From assembly GCF_013369335.1 (NCBI RefSeq), contig NZ_SZQJ01000001.1, positions 62,001 through 126,000 on the forward strand: a DNA stretch of 64,000 nt. Reading direction: 5' to 3'. Shown here piece by piece: positions 10,358 to 36,680 of this stretch (position 1 is the stretch's first letter; each line of letters begins with the position of its first letter). Made by a program: the position numbers and the translations under genes. Below the pieces are notes generated by a model, which worked only from the letters and a program-made list of their open reading frames with translations, searched no databases and had not been told where the DNA came from. The DNA comes from Vibrio sp. JPW-9-11-11. Its GTDB lineage: Bacteria; Pseudomonadota; Gammaproteobacteria; Enterobacterales; Vibrionaceae.

Positions 10358-10359
10358 GA

Positions 10360-10375
10360 CCACGCATTTGCGTGG
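10360..10375. terminator. Short inverted repeat between convergent genes
   Basis: Perfect 6-bp stem CCACGC/GCGTGG with an ATTT loop, 3 bases after the GT4 stop and 12 bases before the lpxM stop on the opposite strand. No clear T-run follows on either strand, so if it terminates transcription it is weak. Confidence 0.4.
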
Positions 10376-10386
10376 CCTATCTATGA

Positions 10387-12417: not shown

Positions 12418-12517
12418 TAGTTCCTAGTTCCTAGAGGCGAGTTCCTAGAGAGGGCAATGAACATCTTTTTCTAGGAATTCATTTTTAGAAACTAGAAACT
12501 GCTTTCAACTAGGAACC
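12418..12517. repeat. Short-word repeat cluster (TTCCTAG / CTAGGAA)
   Basis: Between the hldD start and the holin stop. TAGTTCCTAG and GTTCCTAG words occur three times in 12418-12450, followed by the complementary words CTAGGAA (12471), ACTAGAAA (12491) and AACTAGGAAC (12507). The outer copies form an imperfect 10-of-11 inverted repeat with a 77-base spacer. The holin stop codon lies inside the last copy. A similar word recurs at 60248-60279. Confidence 0.6.
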
Positions 12518-12850
12518 TTTTTTCACTACCCCACCCGTCAAATACAACCCAATCGCTGCCAACACCGGATAACCAAACGCCTCATTAATCATCACGCTGA
12601 TGGGCTGCCACTCAAACCCATGCATACAGCCGAGCACCACCGCCGAGTGCAATACCACATAGGGAATGGTAAACAGCAGCACAATGTAGCGCTGCACCAA
12701 CTTAAAGGGTTCGAACGCCTTAAGCAGGGCGAGTTTGTGCTGCGCTTTTTCTTCGTTAGCAAAAAACATCGCATCTCCACTGTTGGTGAGGGCTTGTAAG
12801 CTCTTATCGATAAACGAGGGGCTACCGAATATTTGGCTCCATAAACTCAT
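12509..12850 (-). CDS. Holin-like small membrane protein of a phage lysis cassette
   Basis: Protein of 113 residues with two clear hydrophobic segments (about residues 53-78 and 88-107) and a charged N-terminal half, resembling the three-TM holins found next to endolysins in prophages and gene-transfer agents (GTA_holin_3TM type). It overlaps the upstream endolysin gene by 4 bases (ATGA), the usual lysis-cassette coupling. The C-terminus ends K-K-G-S, with its stop codon inside a short repeat. Holin function is inferred from size, topology and partner. Confidence 0.65.
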   Translation of the reverse strand: MSLWSQIFGSPSFIDKSLQALTNSGDAMFFANEEKAQHKLALLKAFEPFKLVQRYIVLLFTIPYVVLHSAVVLGCMHGFEWQPISVMINEAFGYPVLAAIGLYLTGGVVKKGS

Positions 12851-13284
12851 GCTTGCTCCTTGAGATTAGATAACTGGGGCTGGATGACCATCACCGGGCA
12901 CGCCTTGTTGGCCCAATAATGGTGTGGCTGAACCTGTTCGTCGGCAATAGAGAACAGCGCTTGTAAGCGCGCAATTAACTCAAATAACGCCTTACGTTGG
13001 GCGAGGGTGAAGTTGTCTTGTGGCTGATTGTGCTCATCACAACCGCCGACTAAGCAAATTCCAATATTGCCGCGATTGTGCCCGCTCACGTGGGCGCCGA
13101 TTTGATGCAGCGACCGCCCTTGCTCGATATCACCTTGGCGAGTGATCACATAGTGATACCCCACATCACGCCAGCCTTTGGCGAGGTGCCATTTACGGAT
13201 TGCCTCTACACCAATGGCTTGGCTCGGCGGTCTTACGCTGCAATGTACTGTGATAGCACGCAGCGGATGGTGAGATGAACTCAT
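12847..13284 (-). CDS. Phage endolysin, N-acetylmuramoyl-L-alanine amidase (T7 lysozyme-like)
   Basis: Amidase_2-family endolysin of 145 residues, cutting the MurNAc-L-Ala bond of peptidoglycan. Expected zinc ligands are visible: H14 in I-T-V-H-C-S, a histidine in H-H-Y-W near residue 118 and the cysteine of K-A-C-P near residue 126. V-G-Y-H-Y-V-I and H-V-S-G-H-N-R-G-N-I-G lie between, as in T7 lysozyme. ATG at 13284 is chosen because AGGAG lies 5 bases upstream and the codon forms an ATGA overlap with the preceding gene; an upstream start at 13305 is less likely. No signal peptide, consistent with holin-dependent release. Confidence 0.85.
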   Translation of the reverse strand: MSSSHHPLRAITVHCSVRPPSQAIGVEAIRKWHLAKGWRDVGYHYVITRQGDIEQGRSLHQIGAHVSGHNRGNIGICLVGGCDEHNQPQDNFTLAQRKALFELIARLQALFSIADEQVQPHHYWANKACPVMVIQPQLSNLKEQA

Positions 13285-13646
13285 AGAGACTCCTGTTTTT
13301 GGCAAAGGTGAATCAAGTACACCACAAACGCCTCAAGCTGTTGCTCGAGCGAGTGTAGCGCCAGTTCGGATGGATGTTGCATCGCGGCTTTTTTCGAGTG
13401 CGCCGCCTGCTTGGCAATATCGGCCAGCGACATCTTTTGCAAATACAACAGCACCGCCAGTTCATGGCCAATCGGTTCGGCTCGCTGAGCTTGGGCGAGT
13501 AAGCCGATAAACCCCTCACGGCATAATCGCTTAGGAAACGGAAAATAGAACTCCTCTTGGTTGGGTTGAAAATGGGAATAGACGTAAATCAAGCGCTGCA
13601 ACGCTTGAGAACGAGGGGCTAGGGCGTATGAATGACATACCGGCAT
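13281..13646 (-). CDS. Hypothetical protein, first gene of the lysis-type operon
   Basis: Soluble protein of 121 residues that I do not recognise. It is helix-forming, with R-S-Q-A-L-Q-R-L-I-Y-V-Y-S-H-F and a middle part rich in Ala, Leu and Gln. ATG at 13646 is preferred to ATG at 13676 because GGGAG lies 5 bases upstream of it. Its stop overlaps the endolysin start by 4 bases, so it belongs to the same transcript. It may be a phage regulatory or structural leftover; function unknown. Confidence 0.6.
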   Translation of the reverse strand: MPVCHSYALAPRSQALQRLIYVYSHFQPNQEEFYFPFPKRLCREGFIGLLAQAQRAEPIGHELAVLLYLQKMSLADIAKQAAHSKKAAMQHPSELALHSLEQQLEAFVVYLIHLCQKQESL

Positions 13647-13902
13647 AGCAACTCCCTTTTTGAACAGAGCCGCCATGTTAATTGGCTAATCGCACCTAGG
13701 GTCGGGCGGTAAGTGGTTTATCGAGTTTAATAACCGGAAGTGTGACGTGGGTATTGTATTGGTTGCATATTTGGGCGCGTGTTGTTTATTACGCTGTGAT
13801 CTGGCTGGAAAATCTCCAAATAAGGGGCGATACACTCAACCCCAATCGCGCAGAGCTTGGTGTGGTAAGCGGCTTTGGCTAAGGAAATACAAGGACACCA
13901 CC

Positions 13903-14436
13903 ATGAGCCACACGCTGGTTGCCGCATTGATGAAGGCGAAAACCGGATCGCCCATCAGTAAATTGATTTTGTTAAAGCTGGCCGACAATGCCGATATCCA
14001 CGGCCGCTGCTTTCCCTCCTAGCAGTATCTTGCGCTGTATTGCGAAGTGTCGCTGCGAACGGTAAAGCAGCACATCAAGCTGCTCGAACAGCAAGGTTTT
14101 ATCGAACTGGTGCACCGCTTTGATAAGCGTGGTCGACAGCGCAGCAATCTTTATCAGCTACATACCCCTGCTCATTTGCATGTTGAGCTGGGCGATACTC
14201 ACAGCCCAAAGCATTCAGACGCTTCTCCCTCTCACCGTGCAGCGACTGCACCCATAATCTCTCAATTAAATACTCATACAGAGGATTATAGGCAGGCAGC
14301 AGCAACCATGCGCCCTGTGGATAAGCAGGTAGAGGCATTTCATCGAGAGGGAAAGTCGCATCCGTTTAGTGAGCGCATTCAGACCATGAACGACAGCCAC
14401 AAACGCAAGGCAAAAGTGGGAGAAAACGATGAATGA
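13903..14436 (+). pseudogene. Phage-type helix-turn-helix (replication/regulatory) gene with in-frame amber codon
   Basis: One coding frame of 178 codons interrupted by TAG at 14020-14022. Before the stop the frame reads M-S-H-T-L-V-A...L-L-K-L-A-D-N-A-D-I-H-G-R-C-F-P-S, and directly after it Q-Y-L-A-L-Y-C-E-V-S-L-R-T-V-K-Q-H-I-K-L-L-E-Q-Q-G-F-I. Together these are one HTH_36-type winged helix as found in phage replication (O-like) proteins. The stop sits where such proteins often have Gln, and TAG differs from CAG by one base, so a C-to-T nonsense change is the simple reading. AAGGA precedes the ATG by 7 bases. A GTG restart at 14047 could give a truncated 129-residue product lacking part of the domain. 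Confidence 0.75.
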
Positions 14437-14740
14437 GCTACTGTCGCTGAGCGAGAAAAAATCGATACTGCGCCAATACAGTGCCCGAGCCGATGGCAGG
14501 CATCAAGAGTTACTCGATGCCATGATAGACCATTACCCCAAACCGATGAGCGGGCTCGAGATAAAACAAGCGCTAAAGATGCAAGGGCCGTTTGCGCTCT
14601 CATCGGCGCTGCGCAACAGCAAAATATTTCTCGAGATCGACAAGGTATACGACTCAGATCGCAAGCAGTGGGTGTATGTGCTAGATAACGCGCCAATAGC
14701 CAGGGCCAAAGCTGCCAGACTGATGAACCAGTTAGTGTAA
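14429..14740 (+). CDS. Hypothetical small phage-associated protein
   Basis: Protein of 103 residues whose ATG overlaps the end of the interrupted HTH gene by 8 bases, so it was probably translated from the same phage transcript. The sequence shows a helical N-terminus (L-S-E-K-K-S-I-L-R-Q-Y), M-S-G-L-E-I-K-Q-A-L-K and a C-terminal basic helix (A-R-A-K-A-A-R-L-M). It may hold a small winged-helix-like fold, but I do not recognise a family. It could be a partner of the upstream DNA-binding protein. Confidence 0.6.
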   Translation: MNELLSLSEKKSILRQYSARADGRHQELLDAMIDHYPKPMSGLEIKQALKMQGPFALSSALRNSKIFLEIDKVYDSDRKQWVYVLDNAPIARAKAARLMNQLV

Positions 14741-15093
14741 CCTAACCACGGAAATCGAGCGGTTAACTTGCACCCATCAAATGAAGCGAATACAATCCCG
14801 GGTTAGGCTGAAAGTTTATCGGGATAGCCCATTGTGCGGGAAACAAACAAAGCCAAGCCGGTGTTTTGCCCCAGCACATACGTGCACGCCAAGACTGCGC
14901 TATCTCGAACGTTTCGCGAAGTCTTTCCCATGGAGAATTTCCTATTGGGGCGGGTTGGAAGAAATAGGTGAAACAATGCTTTATAAGGGGTGGGGAGAAA
15001 TTCACTGTCTCAAAATGAATAAGAAGTGTCTCGGGCTTGGTTGAATGGCTGAGATGAAAATGCAACAAATAACAATTTTTGGAAGTGTAAGTG
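14741..15093. other. Gene-poor junction between phage remnant and cysD
   Basis: Stretch of about 350 bases. Both strands show short open frames (for example 14781-15044 plus and 14763-15068 minus), but neither has a convincing ribosome site or a recognisable protein. It must hold the promoter of the cysD block; I could not pick a promoter with confidence. GGAAG at 15081-15085 serves as the cysD ribosome site. It may be the right-hand edge of the phage remnant. Confidence 0.4.
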
Positions 15094-16008
15094 ATGACAA
15101 TATCACCTGAGAGAATGACTCACCTGAAACAATTGGAAGCGGAATCGATTCACATTATGCGTGAAGTCGCCGCGGAATTTGATAACCCAGTGATGCTTTA
15201 TTCAGTAGGCAAAGACTCCTCCGTTATGCTGCATTTGGCAAAAAAAGCCTTTGCCCCGGGTATCCCTCCTTTCCCTCTGATGCACGTCGATACCACCTGG
15301 AAATTTAAAGAGATGATCGAGTTTCGTGACCAGATGGCCGAAAAACTGGGCATGAAATTGATTGTGCATCAAAACCCAGAAGGGCTTAAGATGAACATTA
15401 GTCCATTCGTTCACGGTAGCTCGAAACACACCGATATCATGAAAACCCAAGGGCTAAAGCAAGCGCTGGATAAGCATGGGTTTGATGCCGCCTTCGGTGG
15501 TGCGCGCCGAGACGAAGAAAAATCTCGCGCCAAAGAGCGTGTTTACTCGTTCCGTGATGAACACCATCGTTGGGACCCTAAAAATCAACGTCCTGAGCTG
15601 TGGAACATCTACAACGGCAAAGTGAACAAAGGCGAAAGCATTCGCGTGTTCCCTTTATCAAACTGGACTGAGCTCGATATCTGGCAGTACATTTATCTAG
15701 AAAACATCGAGATCCCGAGCCTTTACCTTGCTAAGAAGCGCCCTGTGGTTGAGCGAGACGGTATGCTGATCATGCTGGACGATGAGCGGATGGAGCTAAA
15801 AGAGGGCGAAGTTGTTGAAGAGAAAATGGTTCGTTTCCGCACCCTTGGTTGTTATCCACTGACTGGGGCGGTGGAATCTGAAGCGACAACACTGCCAGAA
15901 ATCATTCAAGAAATGTTATTGACTACAACGTCAGAACGCCAAGGGCGCGCAATTGATCACGATAGCTCCGGGTCGATGGAAAAGAAAAAGCGCGAAGGCT
16001 ATTTTTAA
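15094..16008 (+). CDS. cysD: Sulfate adenylyltransferase subunit 2 (ATP sulfurylase small subunit)
   Basis: With CysN makes adenosine 5'-phosphosulfate (APS) from ATP and sulfate. The 304-residue PP-loop protein shows the ATP-pyrophosphatase motif [10 protein letters not shown] near residue 34, [15 protein letters not shown] and the C-terminal basic tail K-K-K-R-E-G-Y-F of CysD. ATG at 15094 is chosen over GTG at 15091 by comparison with the normal N-terminus. Here cysD heads a block that also holds cysC and cysN, but cysN is displaced by three genes (19361), unlike the usual cysDN order. Confidence 0.95.
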
Positions 16009-16034
16009 AGATTCGCTCTGGTTAGTCATTCCCC

Positions 16035-17750
16035 GTGCTTACTACCGCGTTGGTTATTGCTGGTTTGTTGCTCTGCCTGATACTTACTAAGTATCGGGCG
16101 GTTTCTTTATTTGTTGTCGCGACGATTTTGCTCTATCTCTCTGGTCAAATAGAGCAAAGCGACATTTTATCCAATGTGACCAATAGTGCAGTGTTAACAC
16201 TGGTCGGCTTAATGATTGCCTCTTTAGCTTTAGAGAGAAGTCAGCTTCTTACTTGGATTTCGAGTAAGGTATTTCACTCGAGCTACCCCAAAACGCTGTT
16301 CCGCTTAGCCGTTTCGACCTCAATCAGCTCTGCCTTCTTAAATAATACCGCGGTTGTGGCGACCTTGATGAGTAGTGTACAGAGAAACCAAGAGCACGCA
16401 CCTAGTCGACTGCTCATCCCGCTTTCCTACTTTGCCATTTTAGGTGGGACGTTAACCTTAATTGGAACGGCAACCCACTTGGTGGTAAACGCAGTACTGC
16501 TAGGTAGTGGTCATCCTGAGCTTGTTTTTTTCGACTTCACCCCTGTCGGTTTGATTCTTCTGATCTCGGTCGGCGCGGTGATCGCTCTGAGTAGTCGGCA
16601 TCTTGAGAATAAAAGTTCGAGTGAAAAAGCGCAACAAGGCTACTTTATTGACGCCGAAGTGAGCGCTACCAGTCAGTTGGTCGGCAAAACGGTAAGAGAA
16701 AACCATCTGCGAGCATTAGATGGACTGTTTTTGGCGGAAATTGTTCGCGGTCAACAGTTGATTTCTCCTGTTACACCAGAAACAAAAATTGAAGCCAATG
16801 ACAAGCTGGTGTTTACAGGAGATGTAGAAAATATTAAGCAGCTTACCCAACTTGATGGAGTAGTAGTCTTTGCTGATAATAGCCGATTGCTTAGCAGCAA
16901 TTTAACCGAAGTTATTGTTAGTCCTGAATCTGTCCTCATTGGAAAAACGCTTAAGAGCAGTGGTTTTCGATCTCGCTTTGACGCAGCAGTGGTGGCGATT
17001 AATCGCCAAGGTCAACGTCTGTCAGGCAAACTAGGGGAGCAAATACTCCAATCGGGAGACAAACTGGTCTTGGCGATTGGTCAGGATTTTAACAAGAGAC
17101 AAAACCTCACACGTAACTTCTTTATCTTAAATGGTATTGATCTTAATAGCACCCTAACAGCTTGGCAAAACGCGTTAACCATAACGGGCTTTATTGCCGC
17201 AATTGTTACCTCTGCATTTACTCATATAAATCTATTAGAATCTATTGGGGCTTATATTATCCTAATGCGGGCAATCCATGTGATTGATGGCGCAACGATT
17301 CGCCGCCGCTTTCCGTTTGAGCTGTGGCTTATTTTAATTTGCGCGCTTTCAATCGCTCAAGCATTTGTTGATTCAGGTTTGGCGAATGGTGTGACAGAGG
17401 TGCTATACCAGGTGTTAGGTGATGCATCACCATACATGGCGTTAATCGTGTTATTTTTGGTGACAGTAGTTATGACCGAAGTCATGACCAATACTGCCGC
17501 TGCTGCCATTATGTTACCTATTGGTGTATCATTAGCTAGCATTTATCAGGTAAGTAATATGCCGTTTATTATGGCGATAGTATATGCAGCCAGTGCAAGT
17601 TTTTTAAGCCCTTATGGGTATCAAACAAACTTGATGGTCATGAATGCGGGTGGATACCATTTTAAGGACTTTATTCGAGTTGGATGGAAGGTGTCTCTTA
17701 GCTATATCTTGGTGGCTCTTATCGCGATACCTTTAGTTTTTCCTTTGTAA
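16035..17750 (+). CDS. SLC13-family permease with two RCK_C (TrkA_C) domains, possible sulfate importer
   Basis: Polytopic inner-membrane transporter of 571 residues: N-terminal membrane half (to about residue 185), two cytosolic RCK_C domains (about 205-275 and 290-345, each with the V-G-K-T / I-G-K-T-L start), then a C-terminal membrane half ending in Y-G-Y-Q-T-N-L-M-V. The architecture is that of the SLC13/DASS relatives that occur beside cysDNC genes and are proposed sulfate transporters. It starts with GTG 26 bases after cysD and ends 6 bases before cysC, so it is in the same operon. Sulfate as substrate is inferred from the neighbours. Confidence 0.85.
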   Translation: MLTTALVIAGLLLCLILTKYRAVSLFVVATILLYLSGQIEQSDILSNVTNSAVLTLVGLMIASLALERSQLLTWISSKVFHSSYPKTLFRLAVSTSISSAFLNNTAVVATLMSSVQRNQEHAPSRLLIPLSYFAILGGTLTLIGTATHLVVNAVLLGSGHPELVFFDFTPVGLILLISVGAVIALSSRHLENKSSSEKAQQGYFIDAEVSATSQLVGKTVRENHLRALDGLFLAEIVRGQQLISPVTPETKIEANDKLVFTGDVENIKQLTQLDGVVVFADNSRLLSSNLTEVIVSPESVLIGKTLKSSGFRSRFDAAVVAINRQGQRLSGKLGEQILQSGDKLVLAIGQDFNKRQNLTRNFFILNGIDLNSTLTAWQNALTITGFIAAIVTSAFTHINLLESIGAYIILMRAIHVIDGATIRRRFPFELWLILICALSIAQAFVDSGLANGVTEVLYQVLGDASPYMALIVLFLVTVVMTEVMTNTAAAAIMLPIGVSLASIYQVSNMPFIMAIVYAASASFLSPYGYQTNLMVMNAGGYHFKDFIRVGWKVSLSYILVALIAIPLVFPL

Positions 17751-17756
17751 CGAGTT

Positions 17757-18383
17757 ATGAATCCATACAGCAAAAAACAGAATCAATCAGTCAGTGACAA
17801 TCTTGTCTGGCACAACGCGACGGTAACACTTGAACAGCGTTCATTGCTCAAGAAGCAAAAGCCGGTTGTATTGTGGTTTACCGGATTAAGTGGCTCGGGA
17901 AAATCTACCGTGGCAAATGCGGTTGAAAAAAAACTGCTCGCTTTGGGTAAGCATAGCTACCTTCTCGATGGCGACAATGTACGCCACGGACTTAATAAAG
18001 ATCTCGGCTTTAGTGACGCAGATAGAGTGGAAAACATCCGCCGTATTGGCGAAGTGGCGAAGCTTTTTGTCGATTCTGGCTCGATTGTGCTAACCGCTTT
18101 TATCTCACCGTTTATTTCAGATAGGCAGCAAGTGAGAGAGCTATTAAGTGAAGGGCAATTTTTAGAAGTGTTTATTGATACACCACTGGAGATCTGCGAG
18201 CAGCGAGATCCTAAAGGGCTTTATAAAAAAGCGCGCGCGGGAGAAATAAAGCACTTTACTGGCATTGATTCTGAGTACCAAGCGCCGACTGGTGCAGAAA
18301 TTCATGTTAAAACGGCGCAAGCGAGTGTAGATGCATGTGCACAGTACATTGTTAACACACTTATCGAGCAAGGATACATTTAA
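17757..18383 (+). CDS. cysC: Adenylyl-sulfate (APS) kinase
   Basis: Phosphorylates APS to PAPS, the sulfate donor of sulfotransferases and of reductive assimilation. In the 208-residue protein the Walker A motif G-L-S-G-S-G-K-S-T is near residue 43, followed by [15 protein letters not shown] and the [13 protein letters not shown] signature with F-T-G-I-D. All catalytic segments are intact. It lies between the permease (6 bases upstream) and the DHH gene (3 bases downstream), so it is co-transcribed. Confidence 0.96.
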
Positions 18384-18386
18384 ACG

Positions 18387-19352
18387 ATGCATTACGACGT
18401 GTTTAATGGTGATGCAGATGGCATCTTGTCATTGGTGCAACTTCGAAAGTTTGAGCCTAAAAGCTCGACTCTGATCACTGGATTGAAGCGAGATATCAAA
18501 TTGTTGCAGCAAGTGGTTGCCCAATCGGATACCAGTGGTGTTACGGTTTTAGATATCTCAATGGAAAAAAACATCGATGCCTTGCACTCATTACTAGAGA
18601 GAGACATTCCGGTTTTCTATTGCGATCATCATCGTACTGGCGAAGTGCCGCAAGCCAACAACTTTACCGCATTGATCAACCTTGATGCGCAAATTTGTAC
18701 CAGTCTTCTGATTAACAAGCACATTGGTGGGCGTTATGCCCATTGGGCCATTGCAGGGGCGTTTGGCGACAATTTAAATGCCCAAGCTGAGGCGCTGGCC
18801 ATAAAGTGTGATTTATCCGCGGAGCAAATCGCCTTCTTAAAAGAGCTGGGCGTGTTGGTGAATTACAACGGTTATGGTGCTAGCTTGGCGGATTTGCACA
18901 TAGAGCCCACAGATCTTTTCGTGAAATTAATGGCTTATGAGTCACCTTTTGATTTGCAAACGGATACCAGTTCACCATACTTTTTGCTCAAACAAGGTTA
19001 TGAGCAAGACGTAAATCACCTACGAACATTAAAGCCAACTTTTTATAGTTCGGTTGCCAAAGTATACAGTTTACCGTGTGAGGCCTGGGCGAGACGTATT
19101 AGTGGGGTATTTGGCAACCAATTAGCCAATCAATCGCCAGATAAAGCGCATGCAGTCATGACACTCAACCAAAACAGCGAAGATTATACTGTGAGTGTGA
19201 GAGCACCTTTAGAAAATCGAAGTGGTGCCGATGAAGTTTGCAGCCAATTTGTAACTGGTGGCGGCAGAAAGGCCGCTGCTGGGATTAATCAATTACCAAA
19301 GTCTGAAGTGGAAAACTTTGTTCAGGCTTTGAATGAATATTACGAGAAGTAG
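18387..19352 (+). CDS. DHH/DHHA1-family phosphoesterase, candidate PAP phosphatase
   Basis: Predicted cytoplasmic phosphoesterase of 321 residues. Metal-binding residues of the DHH family are visible: G-D-A-D-G (about residues 8-12), V-L-D-I-S (about 53-57), C-D-H-H-R (about 78-82) and F-G-D-N (about 127-130). The C-terminal DHHA1 domain ends in G-G-G-R-K-A-A-A-G. Relatives such as NrnA cut short oligonucleotides and also 3'-phosphoadenosine 5'-phosphate (PAP), the by-product of PAPS-dependent sulfation. Placement between cysC and cysN, 3 and 8 bases away, suggests PAP removal for the sulfotransferase at 23317. That role is inference; the fold is firm. Confidence 0.85.
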   Translation: MHYDVFNGDADGILSLVQLRKFEPKSSTLITGLKRDIKLLQQVVAQSDTSGVTVLDISMEKNIDALHSLLERDIPVFYCDHHRTGEVPQANNFTALINLDAQICTSLLINKHIGGRYAHWAIAGAFGDNLNAQAEALAIKCDLSAEQIAFLKELGVLVNYNGYGASLADLHIEPTDLFVKLMAYESPFDLQTDTSSPYFLLKQGYEQDVNHLRTLKPTFYSSVAKVYSLPCEAWARRISGVFGNQLANQSPDKAHAVMTLNQNSEDYTVSVRAPLENRSGADEVCSQFVTGGGRKAAAGINQLPKSEVENFVQALNEYYEK

Positions 19353-19360
19353 GATACAAG

Positions 19361-20770
19361 ATGTCACACTCTTCAGACTTGATTACAAAAGATATTGAAG
19401 CCTATTTGAAGGTTCATGAAAACAAGGATTTATTACGTTTTCTCACCTGTGGCAATGTAGATGATGGTAAATCAACCCTAATTGGCCGCCTGCTATACGA
19501 TTCAAAGCTGATCTACGAGGATCAGATGGCAGCGATTGAGAAAGACTCACAAAAATTCAATACCACCGATGAGGCGTTTGATCTAGCTTTGTTGGTTGAT
19601 GGATTGCAATCTGAGCGTGAACAAGGCATCACCATAGATGTAGCTTACCGCTACTTTTCGACAGACAAGCGTAAGTTTATTATTGCCGATACCCCAGGGC
19701 ATGAGCAGTACACTCGTAATATGGTGACAGGTGCATCGACATGTGACCTGGCAATTGTAATAGTGGATGCTCGCCGTGGTATTCAGGCCCAAACTCGCCG
19801 ACACAGCTACATTTGCTCTCTATTGGGTATCAAACACATTATAGTTGCCATTAACAAAATGGACTTGATGGATTACAGCCAAGAGGTGTATCAACAGATC
19901 AAAGCCAATTACCGAGAAATGGCGAAAAACTTCAATATCGATGATATTCGCTTTGTACCGATTTCAGCGCTAAAGGGCGACAATGTGGTGACCCCAAGTG
20001 TAAAAATGGATTGGTACCCTGGCGCTACATTAATGAGGTTGCTGGAAACAGTGAAAGTCGATAAAGATAAAGACCTCGAACACATGCGCTTTCCTGTTCA
20101 ATATGTTAACCGCCCTAACTCAAACTTCCGTGGGTTCTGCGGCACATTAGCTTCAGGCTTAGTGCAACTGGGTGATGAAGTAGTTTCGCTTCCTTCAGGC
20201 AAAACCTCTCGCGTGAAAAGTATTTACACTTTTGACGGTGAACTAAGTGCCGTACAGCCAGGCCAAGCAGTCACACTCACATTAGAAGATGAAATTGACA
20301 TCTCACGTGGCGACATGATTGTACACAAAGGGCACGAGCCTAAAGTGACCAATCAATGTGAAGCACACCTAGTGTGGATGGGCGAGCAGCCGATGTTGAC
20401 TCACAAAGAGTATCTATTTAAGTTTGCGACCAAGAGCTGCGCAGGTAAAATCTCTGAAGTTGTTCATAAAGTAGATGTTAATACGTTAGAACAGCATGCA
20501 GAAAAATCTGAGAGTCTAGAGCTTAACGAAATTGCTCTAACTAGTATTAAGCTCATGGATAAAGTGGCAATAGATAAGTATCAGCAATTGCCACAAACGG
20601 GTGCTTTCATTGTTATTGACCGAGTTAGAAACGTGACAGTTGGCGCAGGAATGGTCAATAGTTTGTCAGAATATAAAAAAACAACAGATAGATTATATTC
20701 TCAAGCAGAAAAAGAGCTAAATAGTTATGTTCGTAAGCACTACCCTGAGTGGGGTTGCGCAGAAATCTAA
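19361..20770 (+). CDS. cysN: Sulfate adenylyltransferase subunit 1 (GTPase)
   Basis: GTP-hydrolysing large subunit of ATP sulfurylase, working with CysD. The 469-residue EF-Tu-like protein has G1 G-N-V-D-D-G-K-S-T near residue 31, G3 D-T-P-G-H near residue 109 and G4 N-K-M-D near residue 165, then beta-barrel domains. No fused APS kinase domain is present; CysC is separate. Its stop overlaps the flippase start (TAATG), which physically couples sulfate activation to the polysaccharide genes. Confidence 0.96.
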   Translation: MSHSSDLITKDIEAYLKVHENKDLLRFLTCGNVDDGKSTLIGRLLYDSKLIYEDQMAAIEKDSQKFNTTDEAFDLALLVDGLQSEREQGITIDVAYRYFSTDKRKFIIADTPGHEQYTRNMVTGASTCDLAIVIVDARRGIQAQTRRHSYICSLLGIKHIIVAINKMDLMDYSQEVYQQIKANYREMAKNFNIDDIRFVPISALKGDNVVTPSVKMDWYPGATLMRLLETVKVDKDKDLEHMRFPVQYVNRPNSNFRGFCGTLASGLVQLGDEVVSLPSGKTSRVKSIYTFDGELSAVQPGQAVTLTLEDEIDISRGDMIVHKGHEPKVTNQCEAHLVWMGEQPMLTHKEYLFKFATKSCAGKISEVVHKVDVNTLEQHAEKSESLELNEIALTSIKLMDKVAIDKYQQLPQTGAFIVIDRVRNVTVGAGMVNSLSEYKKTTDRLYSQAEKELNSYVRKHYPEWGCAEI

Positions 20771-22020
20771 TGAAATTAATTAGAGTTTTTTCACAAGTTG
20801 CTTCAATTCAAATTATAGCTACAGCATTAACTCTTTTTCTGGTGTTGTACTATACGAGAGTTCTTACAATTGAAGAGTTCGGATCTTATGCGTTATTAAT
20901 GTCAGTGGTTTCACTAGCTTCTCTCTTAGCTGTAGCGGGAATAAACATATCATTGGTAAGAACAATACCTGTTTCTAGCAAAGAGACTAGCCTAAGACTA
21001 ATAGAGCTGTCACGTAGAAGGGTATTTTATCGTATTTTTTTTATAACACCTTTTGTTGTACTGTTCCTTTTCGAAAAGTCTGACTACCTATCCATTGTTT
21101 TCTCTTGTATCTTGATCGTTTTAAAGTGCCTAACTATTAGGGAAACATCAATACTCAATGGAATGGGAAAACATAAAGTTTCACAAATCTTCTTATTTCT
21201 TTTATTTCCTTTGTACAATGGGGTTATAAATTTTGTGTTATTTTTATTCGATATTAAGCTTACGATTACATTGATAATTGCTGTAATGTCCTTATCAAGT
21301 CTACTAGTCCAATATCAGAGTAGATGCTACAGAAAACGTAATATATCAAGTCACGAATTTGAAGAAGAGGATAGCTCCAAAATTGTAGCTAACTCTAGCA
21401 TCTTTTGGTTATCTTTAGTCTCTGTAATTGATATGATTGGAGTGGAACTTGGGACCTTGATACTTGGTTTTTTTGGTAGTCCAGATGATATTGCGCTCTT
21501 TAGAATTGCATCGCAAACAATGATTTTGGCTGTAATGGTTATCAGTTCAATGAACATTATACTAAACCCCAATATATCAAAATTGTACGGAAAGAGTTGT
21601 AATAATACGTCTGCGCTACAGCTCTATTTAACTAAATCTGTTCGGTTAACCTGCTTTATAATATTTCCAATACTGAGTATACTATTCATATTTGGAGAAT
21701 ATGCCATTGTTACTGTGTTCGGCCAAGAGTACAAGTATAGCCATGAAATTATAAAAATACTTATTTTTGGACAGGTTTTTAATTCTTTATGCGGTTCTGT
21801 GGGGGTAGTTTTAAATATGACTACTAATGAAAAAATTAGCGTTTTTATCTCTACTCTGGGACTGATTATTTATATTTCTCTCGTAATTATTGGTCTCGCT
21901 TTGAAGTTCAATGTATTATATTTGGTTGCGATTGGTTCTGCTTTGAATGTTATTTTTATAAATGTATCCTCCTCTTACTACATAAATAAGAAGTTTGGAC
22001 TAATTACTTGGCTTAGATAA
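20770..22020 (+). CDS. wzx: Oligosaccharide flippase (Wzx family)
   Basis: Polytopic membrane protein of 416 residues in the MATE/MVF polysaccharide transporter group, expected to flip the undecaprenyl-linked repeat unit to the periplasm. It shows about a dozen hydrophobic segments, an N-terminal Y-T-R-V-L-T-I-E-E-F-G pattern typical of Wzx and no other domain. ATG at 20770 overlaps the cysN stop. Base composition drops sharply to AT-rich here, marking the start of an imported glycan island. Family call is sound; substrate unknown. Confidence 0.85.
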   Translation: MKLIRVFSQVASIQIIATALTLFLVLYYTRVLTIEEFGSYALLMSVVSLASLLAVAGINISLVRTIPVSSKETSLRLIELSRRRVFYRIFFITPFVVLFLFEKSDYLSIVFSCILIVLKCLTIRETSILNGMGKHKVSQIFLFLLFPLYNGVINFVLFLFDIKLTITLIIAVMSLSSLLVQYQSRCYRKRNISSHEFEEEDSSKIVANSSIFWLSLVSVIDMIGVELGTLILGFFGSPDDIALFRIASQTMILAVMVISSMNIILNPNISKLYGKSCNNTSALQLYLTKSVRLTCFIIFPILSILFIFGEYAIVTVFGQEYKYSHEIIKILIFGQVFNSLCGSVGVVLNMTTNEKISVFISTLGLIIYISLVIIGLALKFNVLYLVAIGSALNVIFINVSSSYYINKKFGLITWLR

Positions 22021-22091
22021 TGGTTTTTAATAATCGATAAATAATCTACCTGACATATAACATATAAAAAAGCTTATTAGGGAGTGTGTAA

Positions 22092-23327
22092 ATGTTGAAT
22101 ATTGCAGTTGTAGGGGCAGGAATTTCGGGCCTTTCTGTGGCAAAAATGTTACAAAAAGAAGGGGCTAATGTTCATGTTTTTGAAAAGTCTTCCACTATCG
22201 GTGGTATAGCGCGTGTAACAGATATTGAAGGTTATGGGCCTTATCATACTGTAGGAGGACACTGTTTCAATAGTAAATATGATGCGGTTAAAAAGTTTGT
22301 ATTTGAGGAAGTTCTACCCAAGGACAAATGGAATAAAATCAATAGAAATGCAAAGATATCATTTCAATCAAGTTTGATACCATACCCTATTGAGTTAAAT
22401 TTACATGCTTTGGCCAAAGTAGACCAAGACTTGGCGAGTGATGCCCTGGTAGATTTTATGACTGCGCCAGGAGGAAGCTTAAACGACAACCTGGCGAGTT
22501 GGTTTAAAGATAGTTTTGGTACTACGTTATCAGATAGGTATTTTATTCCTTACAATCGGAAAATTTGGGGAAGAGAGCCAAGTCAAATGTCTTCGACTTG
22601 GGTATCAGACAAACTCCCTCTACCAAACAAAAAACAAGTTGCTCAGAGCTTGTTTACTCCTCAACAAGATTTCATGCCACATGCTAGCTTCTATTATCCA
22701 AAGTCTGGTAGTCAAAATGAGTTTATCGAAGCGCTTTCTCAAGGTCTAAAAATTACTAAGTCGTTTGAGGTAAAGAGTATAAATAATGGTATTATCAATG
22801 ATGAGTTAAAGTTCGATTTTGTCATCTCTACGATACCATTAAACGAAATATGTAATGTGGTATCGTTAAGTCGAGAAGAGAATGAGCTTTGTAAAGCTCT
22901 GAAGTATAATAAAGTAACTACGATGCTTTGGGAGACTAATGAAATAGAGGAAACATGGTTATATTACCCTGAAGAGAAGTTTAAGTTTCATCGACTAATA
23001 AATATCGGGTCATTTATTCGTCCAAAAAGGAATATTGCGATAACAGAGGCGGTTGGAGAGGTAGATTACGACGAGATGGTTAATAGTGGAAAGGAAATTC
23101 ATCAGTTGATCAAGCCTATATCCTATAATGTATCAAGTCATGCTTATGTAGTATTCGAAGAAGAAACAAGACAGAAGTCAGAACAACTTATAAAAACCCT
23201 AGAAACCCATGGTGTATATTCACACGGTCGATTTGGCCATTGGGAATATTATAATATGGATATTTGCATTCAAAAGTCATTTGAATTGGTCGAGAGGTTG
23301 AAGAGGATTTACAAAAATGAATTTTAA
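22092..23327 (+). CDS. FAD-dependent oxidoreductase resembling UDP-galactopyranose mutase
   Basis: Protein of 411 residues with an N-terminal dinucleotide-binding motif V-G-A-G-I-S-G-L-S-V (residues 6-15), V-F-E-K-S-S-T-I-G-G-I-A-R and a C-terminal G-R-F-G-H-W-E-Y-Y-N-M-D segment that echoes the G-R-x-x-x-Y-x-Y-x-D-M-D end of UDP-galactopyranose mutase and amine-oxidase-like relatives. It may therefore act on a nucleotide sugar, for example making a furanose, or on another locus-specific substrate. GGGAG lies 8 bases upstream of the ATG. It overlaps the sulfotransferase gene by 11 bases. Overall class is clear; reaction not known. Confidence 0.7.
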   Translation: MLNIAVVGAGISGLSVAKMLQKEGANVHVFEKSSTIGGIARVTDIEGYGPYHTVGGHCFNSKYDAVKKFVFEEVLPKDKWNKINRNAKISFQSSLIPYPIELNLHALAKVDQDLASDALVDFMTAPGGSLNDNLASWFKDSFGTTLSDRYFIPYNRKIWGREPSQMSSTWVSDKLPLPNKKQVAQSLFTPQQDFMPHASFYYPKSGSQNEFIEALSQGLKITKSFEVKSINNGIINDELKFDFVISTIPLNEICNVVSLSREENELCKALKYNKVTTMLWETNEIEETWLYYPEEKFKFHRLINIGSFIRPKRNIAITEAVGEVDYDEMVNSGKEIHQLIKPISYNVSSHAYVVFEEETRQKSEQLIKTLETHGVYSHGRFGHWEYYNMDICIQKSFELVERLKRIYKNEF

Positions 23328-24123
23328 TTTCAAGTTAAAAATAGTGATTCTTGGACTAAAAAAAACCAAAAGAATCTTGGTTTCATTTTACAGGATCATC
23401 TTTGCAAGCTTTATTAATTCTATAGATTGTAATGGTGTAGTTAAAAGTGATAGAGCGAAAGTATTATACATTCCTATCGCTAAAAATGGATGTTCTTCAA
23501 TCAAGAAACTTATTTATGAATATGAAAGTAGAAAATCTATTGGATCAGACCATGAGCTACATAAGATTGTTAACTCGAACGAATCTATTTTCTCTGAATC
23601 CTTAACTGTTGAGCATCAAGGTTACCAAAAGCTATTTGTATGCAGGAATCCTTTTTTAAGAACCATTTCCTTTTATAGAAACAAGTTTGAAGAGTACAAT
23701 AAGCCACGTGGAAGTGGCCGTCCTGAATTTGCTTACAGCGAATACCTCAATGGTGTTTTTAGATCGAGTATGAAATTTGAAGAAGTAGTTGATGTTTTGT
23801 CCCAAATTCCTGATAGCTTGTCAGAGCGCCACTTTCAATCTCAATCTTTTGGTTTTGATTATTATTTGAAAAAGAATGACAATGATATAACGATAATAGC
23901 TCTTGAGGACAGAGATAAGCTTAATGAGTTTTGTAGAGGATATTTTGGAAAGTTGATGTACACGACAAACAGTACGTCAACAGATGATGGTGAAATTGAC
24001 TTAATTAAAAAGTACTATACTATCGAAACCTTGAATAATATCTATGAAAGGTATAAATCTGATGTAAATCGTTTCGGATACAAAAGCGACTATGATAGGT
24101 ACAAGGAAGTGTTAGTTAGATGA
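23317..24123 (+). CDS. Sulfotransferase family 2 protein (glycan sulfotransferase)
   Basis: Predicted PAPS-dependent carbohydrate sulfotransferase of 268 residues. The 5'-phosphosulfate-binding loop I-P-I-A-K-N-G-C-S-S-I-K is near residue 52 and the 3'-phosphate-binding motif V-C-R-N-P-F-L-R-T-I-S-F-Y near residue 108, in the same order and spacing as Sulfotransfer_2 (carbohydrate 2-O/chondroitin type) proteins. The basic N-terminus may contact the membrane. It sits in the AT-rich glycan island directly downstream of the cysD-cysC-cysN block that would supply PAPS. It overlaps both neighbours by a few bases, so it is translated within the same operon. Confidence 0.83.
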   Translation: MNFNFKLKIVILGLKKTKRILVSFYRIIFASFINSIDCNGVVKSDRAKVLYIPIAKNGCSSIKKLIYEYESRKSIGSDHELHKIVNSNESIFSESLTVEHQGYQKLFVCRNPFLRTISFYRNKFEEYNKPRGSGRPEFAYSEYLNGVFRSSMKFEEVVDVLSQIPDSLSERHFQSQSFGFDYYLKKNDNDITIIALEDRDKLNEFCRGYFGKLMYTTNSTSTDDGEIDLIKKYYTIETLNNIYERYKSDVNRFGYKSDYDRYKEVLVR

Positions 24124-24869
24124 AGAAGTTTGTTTATTTGGTTCAAGGTCGGTCTAGTAATGTAGATGTCTTTTTTTCTTGGGAATCTGAAGACGCTGAC
24201 ATAATTATATTGACTTGGGATAAGGAGAAAGAAGGATGTATTTTTTATCCAAATAGTACTTGGGCTACGGGGAGAAACCGATTATTGTCAGAAGCTCTAG
24301 AACGAGATGATTATATGTACTTCATATTTATGGATGAAGACGTAGATTTTACTCTAGGCTCGCATAAAGATCTTGAACGCTGTCTTATAGAATACCAACC
24401 TTTAATCGGAGCTCCAGTGCAATTTAAAAGTTCAAGACTTCAGCACATTATAGATAATATACCGCTCCTTTCTAGAAATAAAGTTCAGTATCAGTATCAT
24501 ATTGATGAGCAGTTACAAGCATTTCATAGAGATGCATTGAAAGAAGAATTGCTGTTACCTTACAGAACAACATATGATGATGTTTGTTGGTGGTACAATA
24601 CCGAACTATTACAATATATTATTAGAGATAAATACCATTCATCATCCTTGCAATTCAATAACATTGAAATAATTAATGAGCAACATATAGACTACCCTCA
24701 GAGCTACGACTTGGAAACAGCGAACAATATAATTGATATGGAGGTAGGTCCAGGAAATTATAGGAGAAGGCTAATAGAAGTAGGTATGGGTAAACATGGA
24801 TGGCTTATGTCTAAGTTTATTATCCTGTATCATCTAATCTGCGAATATTGGAAATCCGCAATAAAATGA
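24120..24869 (+). CDS. Putative glycosyltransferase (GT-A-like) of the glycan island
   Basis: Protein of 249 residues without a family I can name. F-I-F-M-D-E-D-V-D-F near residue 70 looks like a D-x-D motif of a GT-A nucleotide-sugar transferase, preceded by beta-strand-like I-I-I-L-T-W-D and a conserved-looking R-N-R-L-L-S-E-A-L. Later segments (T-Y-D-D-V-C-W-W-Y-N) are rich in Asp and Trp. The C-terminus is hydrophobic. It overlaps the sulfotransferase stop (ATGA) and the polymerase start (ATGA). A glycosyltransferase role is inferred from the motif and position. Confidence 0.55.
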   Translation: MKKFVYLVQGRSSNVDVFFSWESEDADIIILTWDKEKEGCIFYPNSTWATGRNRLLSEALERDDYMYFIFMDEDVDFTLGSHKDLERCLIEYQPLIGAPVQFKSSRLQHIIDNIPLLSRNKVQYQYHIDEQLQAFHRDALKEELLLPYRTTYDDVCWWYNTELLQYIIRDKYHSSSLQFNNIEIINEQHIDYPQSYDLETANNIIDMEVGPGNYRRRLIEVGMGKHGWLMSKFIILYHLICEYWKSAIK

Positions 24870-26191
24870 ACGTTAATTCAAAGTTCCATGCCAACTTTAT
24901 TGTTGGCTGGTTCGTTTTTTTTCTTTTAATATTGTCATCGCTTTTACATTATTTAGTGCCAGGTTATTATGGATTTGATTATCTAGCTGGATTTACCCTA
25001 CTTTTGATTTTAATAAATTTCAGGTTGGAGAAGCAAACAATATTACCGTTGTTTTACTTTGCTGTTATTTCCTACACTTACATTATTTCATTTACTGGAT
25101 ATTTATATGATACCCCATTTGGTTTTTTTGAAGGGGCTAGTGGTGAGGAAGTTAGAACTACTTTAAACATATTTACTTATGCTGCAATAGCCTTTATGAT
25201 GCCATTGCAAATTAAAAGATTTTTCATAAAGAGAAATGAATATGCAAGGATAGATAGATTTAAAAATATTCCAATTCTAGTATTCAAGGAAAAGTTGATT
25301 AAGCTATCCTCTTCGCTAATTGGATATATTGTTATCTTATTTCCATTTTCTGCCTATTTTTTCTCTTTTGACGATCCTATGTTGTTTCTGTATCGAATAG
25401 GATATGAGTATGAATCTGAGCGTATATATCGAGTTTTAGCAACCATAATAATGCCATTCTCATTTCTTCTTTTAGGTGCGGTTAAACGTAGAAGTGCAAG
25501 GTATTTACTGTTTTCTCTTAATTTTATCATGTTTTTTGGTCTTACATCGAGGACAACTTTGCTTCTTCTCGTTATTTATTTTTTTGTGAGGACTTTTATT
25601 AGTCGTAAGAGATTTTGGCATTATGGCATGTATTCGTTTATCTTTATGATAATAGCGACGTCGGTCTTGTCTTTTAGGGTCAATCTTCATCAAGGATTTC
25701 TTCCTAACTTATTGTCCCTTGTAACGTTAAGTCTTGATTGGGGAGCAATAATTTCTGGTTTTAATTACATTCTTTCTTTCTCTGTATCAGTTGTTCATTA
25801 TTCTGTGAATGAGTTGACTTTGGACTCTGACATTTTCTGGACATCTATCAATCCTTTACCCAGCGCAATGTTAGATTTGTCGGTAATATACGATAGTCAA
25901 ATTAACCCATTTGTTCCTGTACCTGCTATTGGTTTGGTGGCCACTTTGGGATTTAACTATCTGATTTTAACCTATTTTACTTTGGGAATGGTTTTTTCTT
26001 TGATGTTTGATACTTGCAAAAGTAAGCTTTTAACATCTGTATTAGTATTGTTCCTATTACTAATATCATTACTATCAACACAATATAATTTGAGAGGTTG
26101 CTCTAGAATTCTTTCTGTTTCATTTATCCTATATGTCAGCTATTATTTTATGTTACTTATGTCGAGGGAAAGAAAATGCTATTCATTTTAG
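24866..26191 (+). CDS. wzy: O-antigen/capsule polymerase-like membrane protein (Wzy)
   Basis: Polytopic inner-membrane protein of 441 residues with about ten or more hydrophobic segments and one larger periplasmic loop (about residues 290-350), the usual plan of Wzy polymerases, whose sequences are poorly conserved. ATG at 24866 is chosen because it forms an ATGA overlap with the previous gene; an upstream in-frame codon at 24848 is unlikely. No other polymerase candidate lies between wzx and wzz, which supports the call. It would polymerise repeat units at the periplasmic face. Confidence 0.7.
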   Translation: MNVNSKFHANFIVGWFVFFLLILSSLLHYLVPGYYGFDYLAGFTLLLILINFRLEKQTILPLFYFAVISYTYIISFTGYLYDTPFGFFEGASGEEVRTTLNIFTYAAIAFMMPLQIKRFFIKRNEYARIDRFKNIPILVFKEKLIKLSSSLIGYIVILFPFSAYFFSFDDPMLFLYRIGYEYESERIYRVLATIIMPFSFLLLGAVKRRSARYLLFSLNFIMFFGLTSRTTLLLLVIYFFVRTFISRKRFWHYGMYSFIFMIIATSVLSFRVNLHQGFLPNLLSLVTLSLDWGAIISGFNYILSFSVSVVHYSVNELTLDSDIFWTSINPLPSAMLDLSVIYDSQINPFVPVPAIGLVATLGFNYLILTYFTLGMVFSLMFDTCKSKLLTSVLVLFLLLISLLSTQYNLRGCSRILSVSFILYVSYYFMLLMSRERKCYSF

Positions 26192-27261
26192 GTCCGTCAA
26201 AGGGGCCTGTTACTGGCCAGAGTTACGCTTTGAATAAGTTTGTCGAAAAAACTAGCTCCAACTGTATTGTTGTTTCAACATCATCAAGATCTTCAAATGT
26301 TCTACTCAAGACCCTCTACAACATTATGCTATTCCCGCATATTTTATTTAGATTGATGTCCAGTAATCCTTCCAGAGCCTACATTAGTATCTCTAGAGGT
26401 AACCTCTCGCATTTAAGGGACTTGTATGCGATCTTTATTTGTCGGTCTATGTCGATTCCAGTAATATTACACTTACATGGCGCAGACCTAAAACAATTAC
26501 GCAACTCAATCCCAAGGTTTTGGCGATATATTTTTGACTCATGCTATCGTTATAGTACTGCTAATATTGTACTTTCTGAATCTATGAAAGAACAATTTGA
26601 CTTTTGCGACGCGTTTAAGACTAAAGTGGTTCCCAATTTTCATGGTTTTGACAATAGAATTGAAGATGTAATATCTCATATAGAAAGCTCTGATCTTTCA
26701 ACTATTCGGATATGTTATTTTTCTAATGTGATGGCTAGTAAGGGGATCGGGTGCCTTTTAGATGCTTTGAATGATTTGGATTGTGACTTTGAGTTGAAAG
26801 TTGCAGGAAAGATTATGGACGATGGTACAATGCCCTTTGAAAGTTTCAAACATGATTTCTTATCTAGAGTAGAGAGTGATGAAAGAATAACTTACTTGGA
26901 TGGTGTCTACGGAGATGATAAATATAGATTCCTTCTAGACAATCATATTATGGTATTACCAACATTTTATAAAACCGAAGCTCAGCCAATTTCAATTATT
27001 GAAGCACTATCTCTTGGGAATATTGTCATTACTACAAAGCATAACTATCTGTCCGACTTGATAGAAAATGATAGAAATGGCCAATTAGTTAATGTGAAAT
27101 CCCCTGAAGAAATTTCATATGCTATTAATGGGCTATCCAGAGATAGGAGGCGTCTCAAATCGATAATGCTTAGAAATGCTCGTTTTTACTATAACGACTA
27201 TTCATTGTTGTCACATGTTAACCGTGTAGAGGAAGTGATTTTCCATGGCAAAAGAAGTTGA
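26176..27261 (+). CDS. Glycosyltransferase family 4
   Basis: GT-B glycosyltransferase of 361 residues. The N-terminal half has L-G-P-S-K-G-P-V-T-G-Q-S and H-L-H-G-A-D-L, the linker V-V-P-N-F-H-G, and the C-terminal donor domain carries an E-x7-E motif (E-A-Q-P-I-S-I-I-E) near residue 275 followed by A-L-S-L-G-N. It overlaps wzy by 16 bases and the next GT2 gene by 17 bases. It would add one sugar of the repeat unit; donor unknown. Strongly AT-rich like its neighbours. Confidence 0.85.
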   Translation: MLFILGPSKGPVTGQSYALNKFVEKTSSNCIVVSTSSRSSNVLLKTLYNIMLFPHILFRLMSSNPSRAYISISRGNLSHLRDLYAIFICRSMSIPVILHLHGADLKQLRNSIPRFWRYIFDSCYRYSTANIVLSESMKEQFDFCDAFKTKVVPNFHGFDNRIEDVISHIESSDLSTIRICYFSNVMASKGIGCLLDALNDLDCDFELKVAGKIMDDGTMPFESFKHDFLSRVESDERITYLDGVYGDDKYRFLLDNHIMVLPTFYKTEAQPISIIEALSLGNIVITTKHNYLSDLIENDRNGQLVNVKSPEEISYAINGLSRDRRRLKSIMLRNARFYYNDYSLLSHVNRVEEVIFHGKRS

Positions 27262-28186
27262 GCCTCTAATTTCAGTGATAGTTCCAACCTATAATGTGGA
27301 AGAATATATTACTGAAGCTATTGTCAGTATTTTTAATCAAACATACAATAACCTAGAAATTATCGTAGTAGATGATGCATCAACTGATAATACATATGCT
27401 ATTTTGCAGAGTTTGCAATCTAAGGACCCTAGATTAAAATTATTCCGTAACGATACTAATTTGAAGATATCCAAGACATTAAATCGTGCTTTGAAATACG
27501 CTTCTGGTGATTATATAGCAAGAATGGATGGAGATGATATATCTTATCCTGAAAGAATTGAGAAGCAATTGTCCTATATTAAATCTATGAATGTTGATAT
27601 TGTCGGTGTTTCCAACGAGTTCTTTAACAGTCAAGGTGTTTTTGCTGTTAATAATTTGGGTGCGGATTCCGTTCAAATAGTTAATGAAGCTAAATTTAGG
27701 AATCCAATGTCACATAATTGGTTGGCAAGAAGAAAAGTCTACGATTTTCTATGTGGCTACAACGATTGCCCTCCAGTTGAAGACTACGACTTTGTTTGTA
27801 GAGCCATACTAAATGATTTTAAACTTGTTAATTTGAGTTATGTTGGTATGAAAATAAGATTCCGCCAAGGGAACACATTTGATCAAGGTGCATATTTACA
27901 GTATTGTTTAGCCAAATATCTTTCAAAAGAATTTCGAAAGAGTCTGTTACGTGGCGATAAATCTATTTCTTATAATAGGCTAAAAAAAGTAGAGCCATCA
28001 CATTTGGTCCAAGGTATGTACAGAGAATCACTTCGCTACCGAAGAAAGTACATGAAATACAGAAATGATAGGAATTATTTCGGCATGGTTGTCTCTTCGG
28101 TTTTCGCAATGTTCTTGCATCCGAACTCAGTCATTGACGGTTTATTGTTGAGATTTGTTACTAATAAGAAAGGTGATTTTATATGA
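27245..28186 (+). CDS. Glycosyltransferase family 2
   Basis: GT-A inverting glycosyltransferase of 313 residues: [13 protein letters not shown] at the N-terminus, [10 protein letters not shown], the D-x-D region R-M-D-G-D-D near residue 94 and a later P-P-V-E-D-Y-D-F acceptor/catalytic segment near residue 177 (the E-D base). A basic helix and hydrophobic C-terminal stretch suggest membrane contact. It overlaps gmd by 4 bases (ATGA). It is the last AT-rich gene; gmd returns to typical composition. Confidence 0.88.
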
Positions 28187-29289: not shown

Positions 29290-29318
29290 TTAATCATAAA
29301 TACTATCTCGTTTATATT

Positions 29319-29350
29319 GCAGAGCTCCTTAATTCAAGCTCTGCTTTTCT
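29319..29350 (+). terminator. Rho-independent-like terminator between gmd and fcl
   Basis: 8-bp perfect stem GCAGAGCT/AGCTCTGC with a 10-base loop, followed by TTTTCT. It lies 30 bases after the gmd stop and 22 bases before fcl, so it could reduce read-through within the nucleotide-sugar genes. Confidence 0.65.
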
Positions 29351-29371
29351 ATTTAAATTATCGGTACTAGT

Positions 29372-30331: not shown

Positions 30332-30359
30332 GCGTATGGGTAGAAGGTGACCACACAAT

Positions 30360-30815: not shown

Positions 30816-30839
30816 TGAAATTTTAATAACGAGTTGACT

Positions 30840-33715: not shown

Positions 33716-33757
33716 TGATTGTGCAATAACGCTCCGCATTCCATTTGTTGACTCGAA

Positions 33758-33790
33758 ATCAGGGCTAGAGATTTAGCCCTGATGATTTTT
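33758..33790 (+). terminator. Rho-independent-like terminator between manB and manA
   Basis: 10-bp perfect stem ATCAGGGCTA/TAGCCCTGAT with a 6-base loop, followed by GATTTTT. It lies 43 bases after the manB stop and ends 14 bases before manA, so manA expression would need read-through or a promoter near the hairpin. Confidence 0.65.
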
Positions 33791-33803
33791 GGTAAGTACG
33801 CCC

Positions 33804-35760: not shown

Positions 35761-35763
35761 TTG

Positions 35764-36678: not shown

Positions 36679-36680
36679 TA

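Follow-up and report, generated by a model that had tools for sequence, protein, structure and literature searches.

A second sulfate-activation gene set, with a DHH phosphoesterase in the slot of CysQ, likely serves glycan sulfation in a Vibrio polysaccharide locus

We analyzed a 64,000-nucleotide stretch of the genome of Vibrio sp. JPW-9-11-11 (contig NZ_SZQJ01000001.1, positions 62,001 to 126,000; hereafter, the window), in which a block of sulfate-activation genes (cysD, a permease gene, cysC, a gene of the DHH phosphoesterase family and cysN) adjoins a polysaccharide locus containing a sulfotransferase gene. The block is a second cys set in this genome, and we put at roughly 77% the probability that it is a glycan-dedicated supply of 3'-phosphoadenosine-5'-phosphosulfate (PAPS) feeding the adjoining sulfotransferase, with the DHH protein predicted to clear 3'-phosphoadenosine-5'-phosphate (PAP) in place of CysQ. 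The polymer made by the locus is likely sulfated, being either a capsule or an O-antigen. A vibrio locus for sulfation is of an already known kind; the DHH protein in the CysQ slot is the new part, and its role was absent from the preliminary description of this DNA.

The second cys set and its sulfotransferase

The five genes of the block occupy positions 15091-20770 of the + strand in the order given above (Table 1), all with open frames and separated by only 26, 6, 3 and 8 bases, in order. This bears out the same-strand run with tiny gaps of the preliminary description, which also placed a sulfotransferase three genes further on (it is indeed the third after cysN, following wzx and a FAD/Glf-like gene) and had cysN overlapping the start of wzx. 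The latter overlap is probably of only one base, TAATG at 20768-20772 with the wzx ATG at 20770; with the start listed mechanically, a GTG at 20749, it would be 22 bases long. Since cysD, cysC and cysN score far over curated cut-offs, chance matches are no concern for their identity, while the DASS model scores under its cut-off for the permease. The block does not contain cysH, cysI or cysJ. Its G+C content (0.43-0.48) is like that of most of the window, while that of the genes from wzx to gt2 is 0.32-0.36; the cys block is perhaps a stable supply module adjoining exchangeable repeat-unit genes. Promoter and terminator scans gave results at chance level, and the JUMPstart/ops core GGCGGTAG was matched twice, where a mean of 0.86 is expected by chance, with both matches away from the cys block.

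A genome-wide search for a second cysDNC set, which had been named beforehand as a test, found a complete set on another contig (C2): a cobA/cysG-type gene, then cysD-cysN-permease-cysC, then cysJ, cysI and cysH. The block in the window is therefore an additional set, and its genes are arranged differently from those on C2. The two copies are 82% identical for cysD, 60% for cysN, 62-63% for cysC and 41% for the permease, whose homologue on C2 sits between cysN and cysC; the housekeeping set has no DHH gene.

The sulfotransferase is the sole match to PF03567 in the 4.14-Mb genome at E <= 0.001, and PF13469 and PF00685 have no match in the genome at the same threshold. Our genome sample contains 13 other PF03567 matches; in an alignment with 7 of them, a Lys and a first Ser were each kept in 8/8 rows, an Arg in 7/8 (Lys in the remaining one) and a second Ser in 8/8. 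We take the Lys/Ser pair to be the 5'-phosphosulfate loop and the Arg...Ser pair to be the 3'-phosphate site. Since these positions are kept, nothing in the sequence marks the enzyme as inactive. With cysJIH located on C2 and the cofactor residues kept, the earlier proposal that the block is a dedicated PAPS supply for sulfation of the repeat unit is supported.

Other searches with the sulfotransferase were less informative. In a search of 5.8 billion proteins that depends on shared words, only the protein itself, out of 339 candidates, reached E <= 1e-3, the sequences of solved structures gave no match, and a model from the lone sequence reached a predicted local distance difference test score (pLDDT) of 39.7 and was not used. 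A home-made sulfotransferase regular expression was dropped, having matched 0/448 frames though several sulfotransferases were present by Pfam. The sulfotransferase, a 249-aa protein and a Wzy-like protein are consecutive (window 23317-26191), the first without close relatives found and the others without a match to a family model.

In the mechanism that we propose, the SLC13-type permease would bring sulfate into the cell, CysDN would make adenosine 5'-phosphosulfate (APS) and CysC would then make PAPS. The sulfotransferase would move sulfate onto a repeat-unit sugar in the cytoplasm, before Wzx flips the unit, and the DHH protein would split PAP into adenosine monophosphate and phosphate; sulfation would thus continue without draining the cysteine pathway. 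Since PAP inhibits sulfotransferases (PMC8268124, PMC10322725), a local PAP phosphatase would be sensible beside a local PAPS supply.

Exchange of DHH and CysQ beside cysC

We compared the surroundings of cysC in 61 genomes (the present one, 36 others of the genus and 24 of the order), which hold 63 cysC places, some of them as fused CysN-CysC. A neighbor was defined as a gene within 2 kb of cysC, and CysQ was called by TIGR01331 over its cut-off. The counts used 47 DHH places (49 rows, as two broken genes with two rows each were counted once each), all 63 cysC rows, 64 CysQ rows over the cut-off, and 14/14 PF03567, 30/48 PF13469 and 6/43 PF00685 rows; the rows left out were repeats of the same gene or lay in two genomes (G049 and G039) on contigs without cysC. 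Results showed a DHH gene beside 18 of the 63 cysC places (the window gene and 17 others of the 47 DHH places), CysQ beside 9, both beside 0 and neither beside 36. The division follows the relatedness of cysC: among the 20 cysC closest to that of the window, its own included, 18 have DHH, 2 have CysQ and 0 have neither, and the corresponding figures for the other 43 places are 0 with DHH, 7 with CysQ and 36 with neither. The absence of any place shared between the 18 and the 9, out of 63, has a chance p of 0.037, which is a weak figure because the genomes are related; the exchange of the two genes at one slot is the stronger fact.

This exchange was seen in 80 loci from named genomes, in which CysQ was sought with one CysQ (that of L146) at E 1e-8 and half length, settings that a distant CysQ may escape. 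DHH was found in 7 of these loci and CysQ beside cysC in 5, and the two never occurred together; in one DHH locus (L042) the gene lies ~2.5 kb from cysC, across cysD-cysN. Four of the five CysQ loci (L040, L057, L081 and L086), whose hosts are Alteromonas, Paraglaciecola and an Alteromonadaceae metagenome-assembled genome, have the order cysD-cysC-CysQ-cysN-permease, so that CysQ occupies the slot of DHH in the window; the identity of CysQ in L040 was given by TIGR01331. A further sample from the order, with 119 genomes, shared some genomes with the first; in it, 14 of the 19 DHH genes outside the genus lay within 2 kb of cysC, but only 2 of the 10 within the genus did. Four of the remaining five non-genus genes are on contigs without any cysC, and one is in a genome without a cysC match.

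The DHH protein has motifs I-IV (D.D, D, DHH, D) and the GGG motif of DHHA1, all invariant in 55 sequences, as are the individual residues D9, D11, D56, D80-H81-H82, D128, R272 and G291-293. Its scores with the Pfam DHH and DHHA1 models are under the curated cut-offs (22.6 vs 28.1 and 21.6 vs 25.9 bits, respectively); several close relatives carry PF02272 or PF01368. The predicted structure (pLDDT 95.2) has a two-domain DHH-DHHA1 fold like that of 8a8k, a DHH-type PAP phosphatase and the best Foldseek match (template modelling score 0.68), and a sequence search of solved structures gave one chance row (E 0.5). At E <= 0.001 the protein matches no CysQ model such as TIGR01331, and NCBIfam yields just one weak match at this threshold, to RecJ. 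Judged by sequence, it would at most work like CysQ rather than belong to the CysQ family (FIG superfamily). Because CysQ replaces it at one slot, 8a8k is its best structural match and its metal-site residues are invariant, we predict that DHH is a stand-in for CysQ, clearing the PAP left by sulfation.

DHH relatives number at least 8000 at E <= 1e-5, and some are away from cysC. One is a second DHH gene, 52% identical, in the present genome (G000:C8:161398-162351), which is away from any cysC and has gpmM-, EnvC- and TetR-like neighbors, as in 9/15 other same-genus loci examined. A single origin of the cys-linked DHH genes was considered but is not supported: a tree of 39 rows, with frames cut to a common start and two broken copies left out, needs 5 changes of linkage, at least 4 of them forced by starred branches. 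In this tree the window gene belongs to a group of 10 rows, all cys-linked and from Vibrio, whose support is only 82/79. The broken copies are cys-linked genes of L136 (G010, about 9440-10400) and L137 (G001, about 3434-4413), where cysC and cysN are full-length; they hint that another PAP phosphatase can cover for DHH.

Sulfotransferase linkage and alternative explanations

In the 61-genome sample, a PF03567, PF13469 or PF00685 domain lay within 50 kb of 11/27 cysC places with a PAP-phosphatase neighbor vs 0/36 of those without (Fisher p 2e-5, kinship of the genomes ignored). One of the 11, in G016, scores 19.6 bits, below the cut-off of its family, and without it the count is 10/27. Within the genus, 7/14 DHH-linked cysC loci had a sulfotransferase domain within 50 kb, as compared to 0/30 of the others (44 loci). 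Labelled neighbors in several of the loci L129-L146 (for example L130, L134, L138-L141 and L145) are glycan genes, and in L138 and L140 the supply genes bracket them: cysD-cysN is followed at once by sulfotransferases, further on by other genes and a wzx-like gene, and last by permease-cysC-DHH. Where L138 has two sulfotransferases after cysN, the corresponding stretch of L139 (5570-7256) contains a transposase of the IS200 type plus two unassigned frames, and sulfotransferases may have been lost there. The set is present in 14/37 sampled same-genus genomes; the preliminary description had called sulfated O-antigen or capsule uncommon in vibrios, which fails at the gene level. Weighing against our interpretation, all three sulfotransferase families are absent from four of the 14 genomes of the genus that carry the set, and four of the 23 that lack it have one.

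Three other explanations deserve consideration. The DHH protein could be an enzyme of RecJ/NrnA type, either a nanoRNase or a cyclic-dinucleotide (pGpG/pApA) phosphodiesterase, that is merely carried along with the cys genes, in which case the locus would still be for sulfation. We regard this as unlikely, since DHH is linked to cysC across several gene orders and genera, is swapped with CysQ at one slot, and could not be usefully matched by sequence to the DHH proteins of solved structure. A second alternative is that the block is a spare sulfate-assimilation set for cysteine, lying beside polysaccharide genes by happenstance. Although the 82% identity of CysD to its housekeeping copy fits such an origin, we rejected it because the block lacks cysH, cysI and cysJ and the full pathway is intact on C2; the one-base overlap of cysN with wzx and the glycan neighbors in several of L129-L146 also oppose it, and we consider it very improbable.

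Slightly less probable still is that the extra PAPS is a signal in biofilm control, as proposed in V. vulnificus, instead of a sulfate donor. Mutants of V. vulnificus in cysD and cysC are reported to lose calcium-induced brp expression and rugosity (PMC6113621); however, the same mutants are described as cysteine auxotrophs (PMC6113621), so the assimilatory set is the one concerned, and in the window a sulfotransferase and a glycan locus are part of the same gene run. A dedicated PAPS supply with DHH as the predicted PAP phosphatase is the explanation that we prefer.

The wider locus, known systems and significance

Past the sulfotransferase, the locus continues to about 40.5 kb (Table 1), and its glycan assembly and transport genes include wzx, glycosyltransferase (GT) genes, an initiating transferase gene and wzz. 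The repeat unit probably holds a sugar derived from guanosine diphosphate (GDP)-mannose or GDP-fucose. Upstream there are core genes and a gene of the O-antigen-ligase type (PF04932), and Wzz closes the gene run; downstream, at 49091-56636, is an export set of the group-4-capsule type (GfcB/YjbF, GfcC, YjbH, SLBB/Poly_export and a second Wzz). In V. parahaemolyticus the K antigen is reported to be set by the gmhD-rjg locus (PMC7829505). The polymer may be either a capsule or an O-antigen. Between an hldD-like gene and the cys block (12509-14740) are Amidase_2 and small unassigned genes that, on reading, have a phage or mobile look.

Table 1. Features of the cys block and polysaccharide locus, in positions of the window
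Feature	Position	Strand	Evidence
cysD, ATP sulfurylase small subunit, second copy	15091-16008	+	TIGR02039/NF009214; NF009214 543.6 bits, cut-off 413
SLC13/ion-transporter type permease, predicted sulfate uptake	16035-17750	+	CitMHS and two TrkA_C
cysC, APS kinase, second copy	17757-18383	+	TIGR00455 288.3 bits, cut-off 138.7
DHH-DHHA1 phosphoesterase, predicted PAP phosphatase in place of CysQ	18387-19352	+	conserved residues, Foldseek, gene linkage
cysN, ATP sulfurylase large subunit, second copy	19361-20770	+	NF003478 718.9 bits, cut-off 590
wzx-like flippase	20770-22020	+	Polysacc_synt_3 3.2e-11; likely start from sequence
FAD-binding protein, distantly like UDP-galactopyranose mutase	22092-23327	+	NAD_binding_8 2.3e-12; TIGR00031 53.3 bits, far under cut-off 303.75
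Sulfotransfer_2 sulfotransferase, predicted to sulfate glycan	23317-24123	+	PF03567 2.7e-12, 47.8 bits, cut-off 22
249-aa protein, perhaps glycosyltransferase (by reading only)	24120-24869	+	no Pfam match at 0.01
447-aa membrane protein, Wzy-like by position and composition (by reading only)	24848-26191	+	no Pfam/NCBIfam match at 0.001
Two glycosyltransferases, GT4-type and GT2-type	26176-28186	+	PF13692 8.6e-14, PF00535 3.4e-39
GDP-fucose/GDP-mannose supply: gmd, fcl, gmm-like, manC, manB, manA	28183-34991	+	open frames; names by reading translations
GT2, gne-like epimerase, initiating sugar transferase, wbpM-like, wzz	34999-40497	+	PF00535, PF01370, PF02397, PF02719, PF02706

Two described systems resemble this locus. 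In Vibrio sp. KMM 8419, whose capsule is reported as sulfated by nuclear magnetic resonance, the locus has a second cysC, cysN and cysD and three sulfotransferase genes (PMC11641403). Like that of the window, it is described as lying downstream of gmhD and combining the second cys genes and sulfotransferase with glycan assembly genes; it differs in having kps/ABC export, rhamnose and three sulfotransferases (PMC11641403), whereas the window has wzx/wzz, GDP-fucose genes and one sulfotransferase. The term DHH has 0 occurrences in the main text of that paper. In Cobetia marina KMM 1449, the sulfated-capsule cluster is described as containing cysN/C, cysD, cysQ and a permease gene, listed as cysNC-cysD-cysQ-permease (PMC11766843), which supports our interpretation. 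ATP sulfurylase, APS kinase, a PAP phosphatase and a sulfate permease within a glycan cluster are thus common to Cobetia and, by prediction, the window, but in Cobetia the phosphatase is CysQ and CysN-CysC is one bifunctional gene (PMC11766843), whereas the window has DHH and separate genes.

Characterized counterparts of the DHH protein are archaeal. MtPAPP of Methanothermococcus thermolithotrophicus (PDB 8a8k) is a DHH-family protein reported to hydrolyze PAP and to be encoded beside ATP sulfurylase and APS kinase (PMC10322725). By motif order, its Asp8/Asp10/Asp57/His76-His77/Asp127 correspond to D9/D11/D56/H81-H82/D128 of the window protein; however, MtPAPP serves archaeal sulfate reduction (PMC10322725), the two are only 12-13% identical, and its His6 is Asn7 in the window protein. 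The pApase of Pyrococcus yayanosii is likewise described as a PAP phosphatase of the DHH-DHHA1 type in an ATP-sulfurylase/APS-kinase cluster (PMC8268124). Going by motif order, the window protein has the Arg and Gly residues on which pApase activity depends, although the enzyme is archaeal and its Lys287, after the glycines, is Arg294 in the window protein. In insertion IE1 of V. parahaemolyticus K3/K28, a gene designated OG095 occupies the slot of DHH in the window (PMC7829505); going by gene order, it may be DHH. In the open-licence literature searched we found no paper joining DHH, cysC, polysaccharide and phosphatase, and work there on DHH with sulfotransferase, PAPS and phosphoesterase was archaeal only. 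Papers in the same literature deal with DHH enzymes or metabolism in archaea, Bacillus, Mycoplasma and others; judged by titles and the opening parts of abstracts, none of them is about DHH as a PAP recycler in a bacterial glycan locus.

We consider it reasonably probable that a whole bacterial DHH clade, whose members currently carry only the name 'DHH family phosphoesterase' or the erroneous one 'acetyltransferase', takes the part of CysQ as PAP phosphatase in glycan-sulfation modules of marine Gammaproteobacteria, and that a second cysC with DHH or CysQ as its neighbor marks sulfated-glycan loci by sequence alone, V. parahaemolyticus K3/K28-type capsules included. Among bacterial surface glycans, only a small number of sulfated ones have been elucidated, with sure detection only by chemistry, and such a marker would let candidate loci be read from genomes. 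The presence of the set in more than a third of the sampled genomes of the genus suggests that sulfated glycans are common in vibrios. The large, unnamed or misnamed DHH family would gain a testable function, and the removal of PAP by DHH proteins, a subject of work on archaeal sulfate metabolism, would extend to bacterial glycan sulfation.

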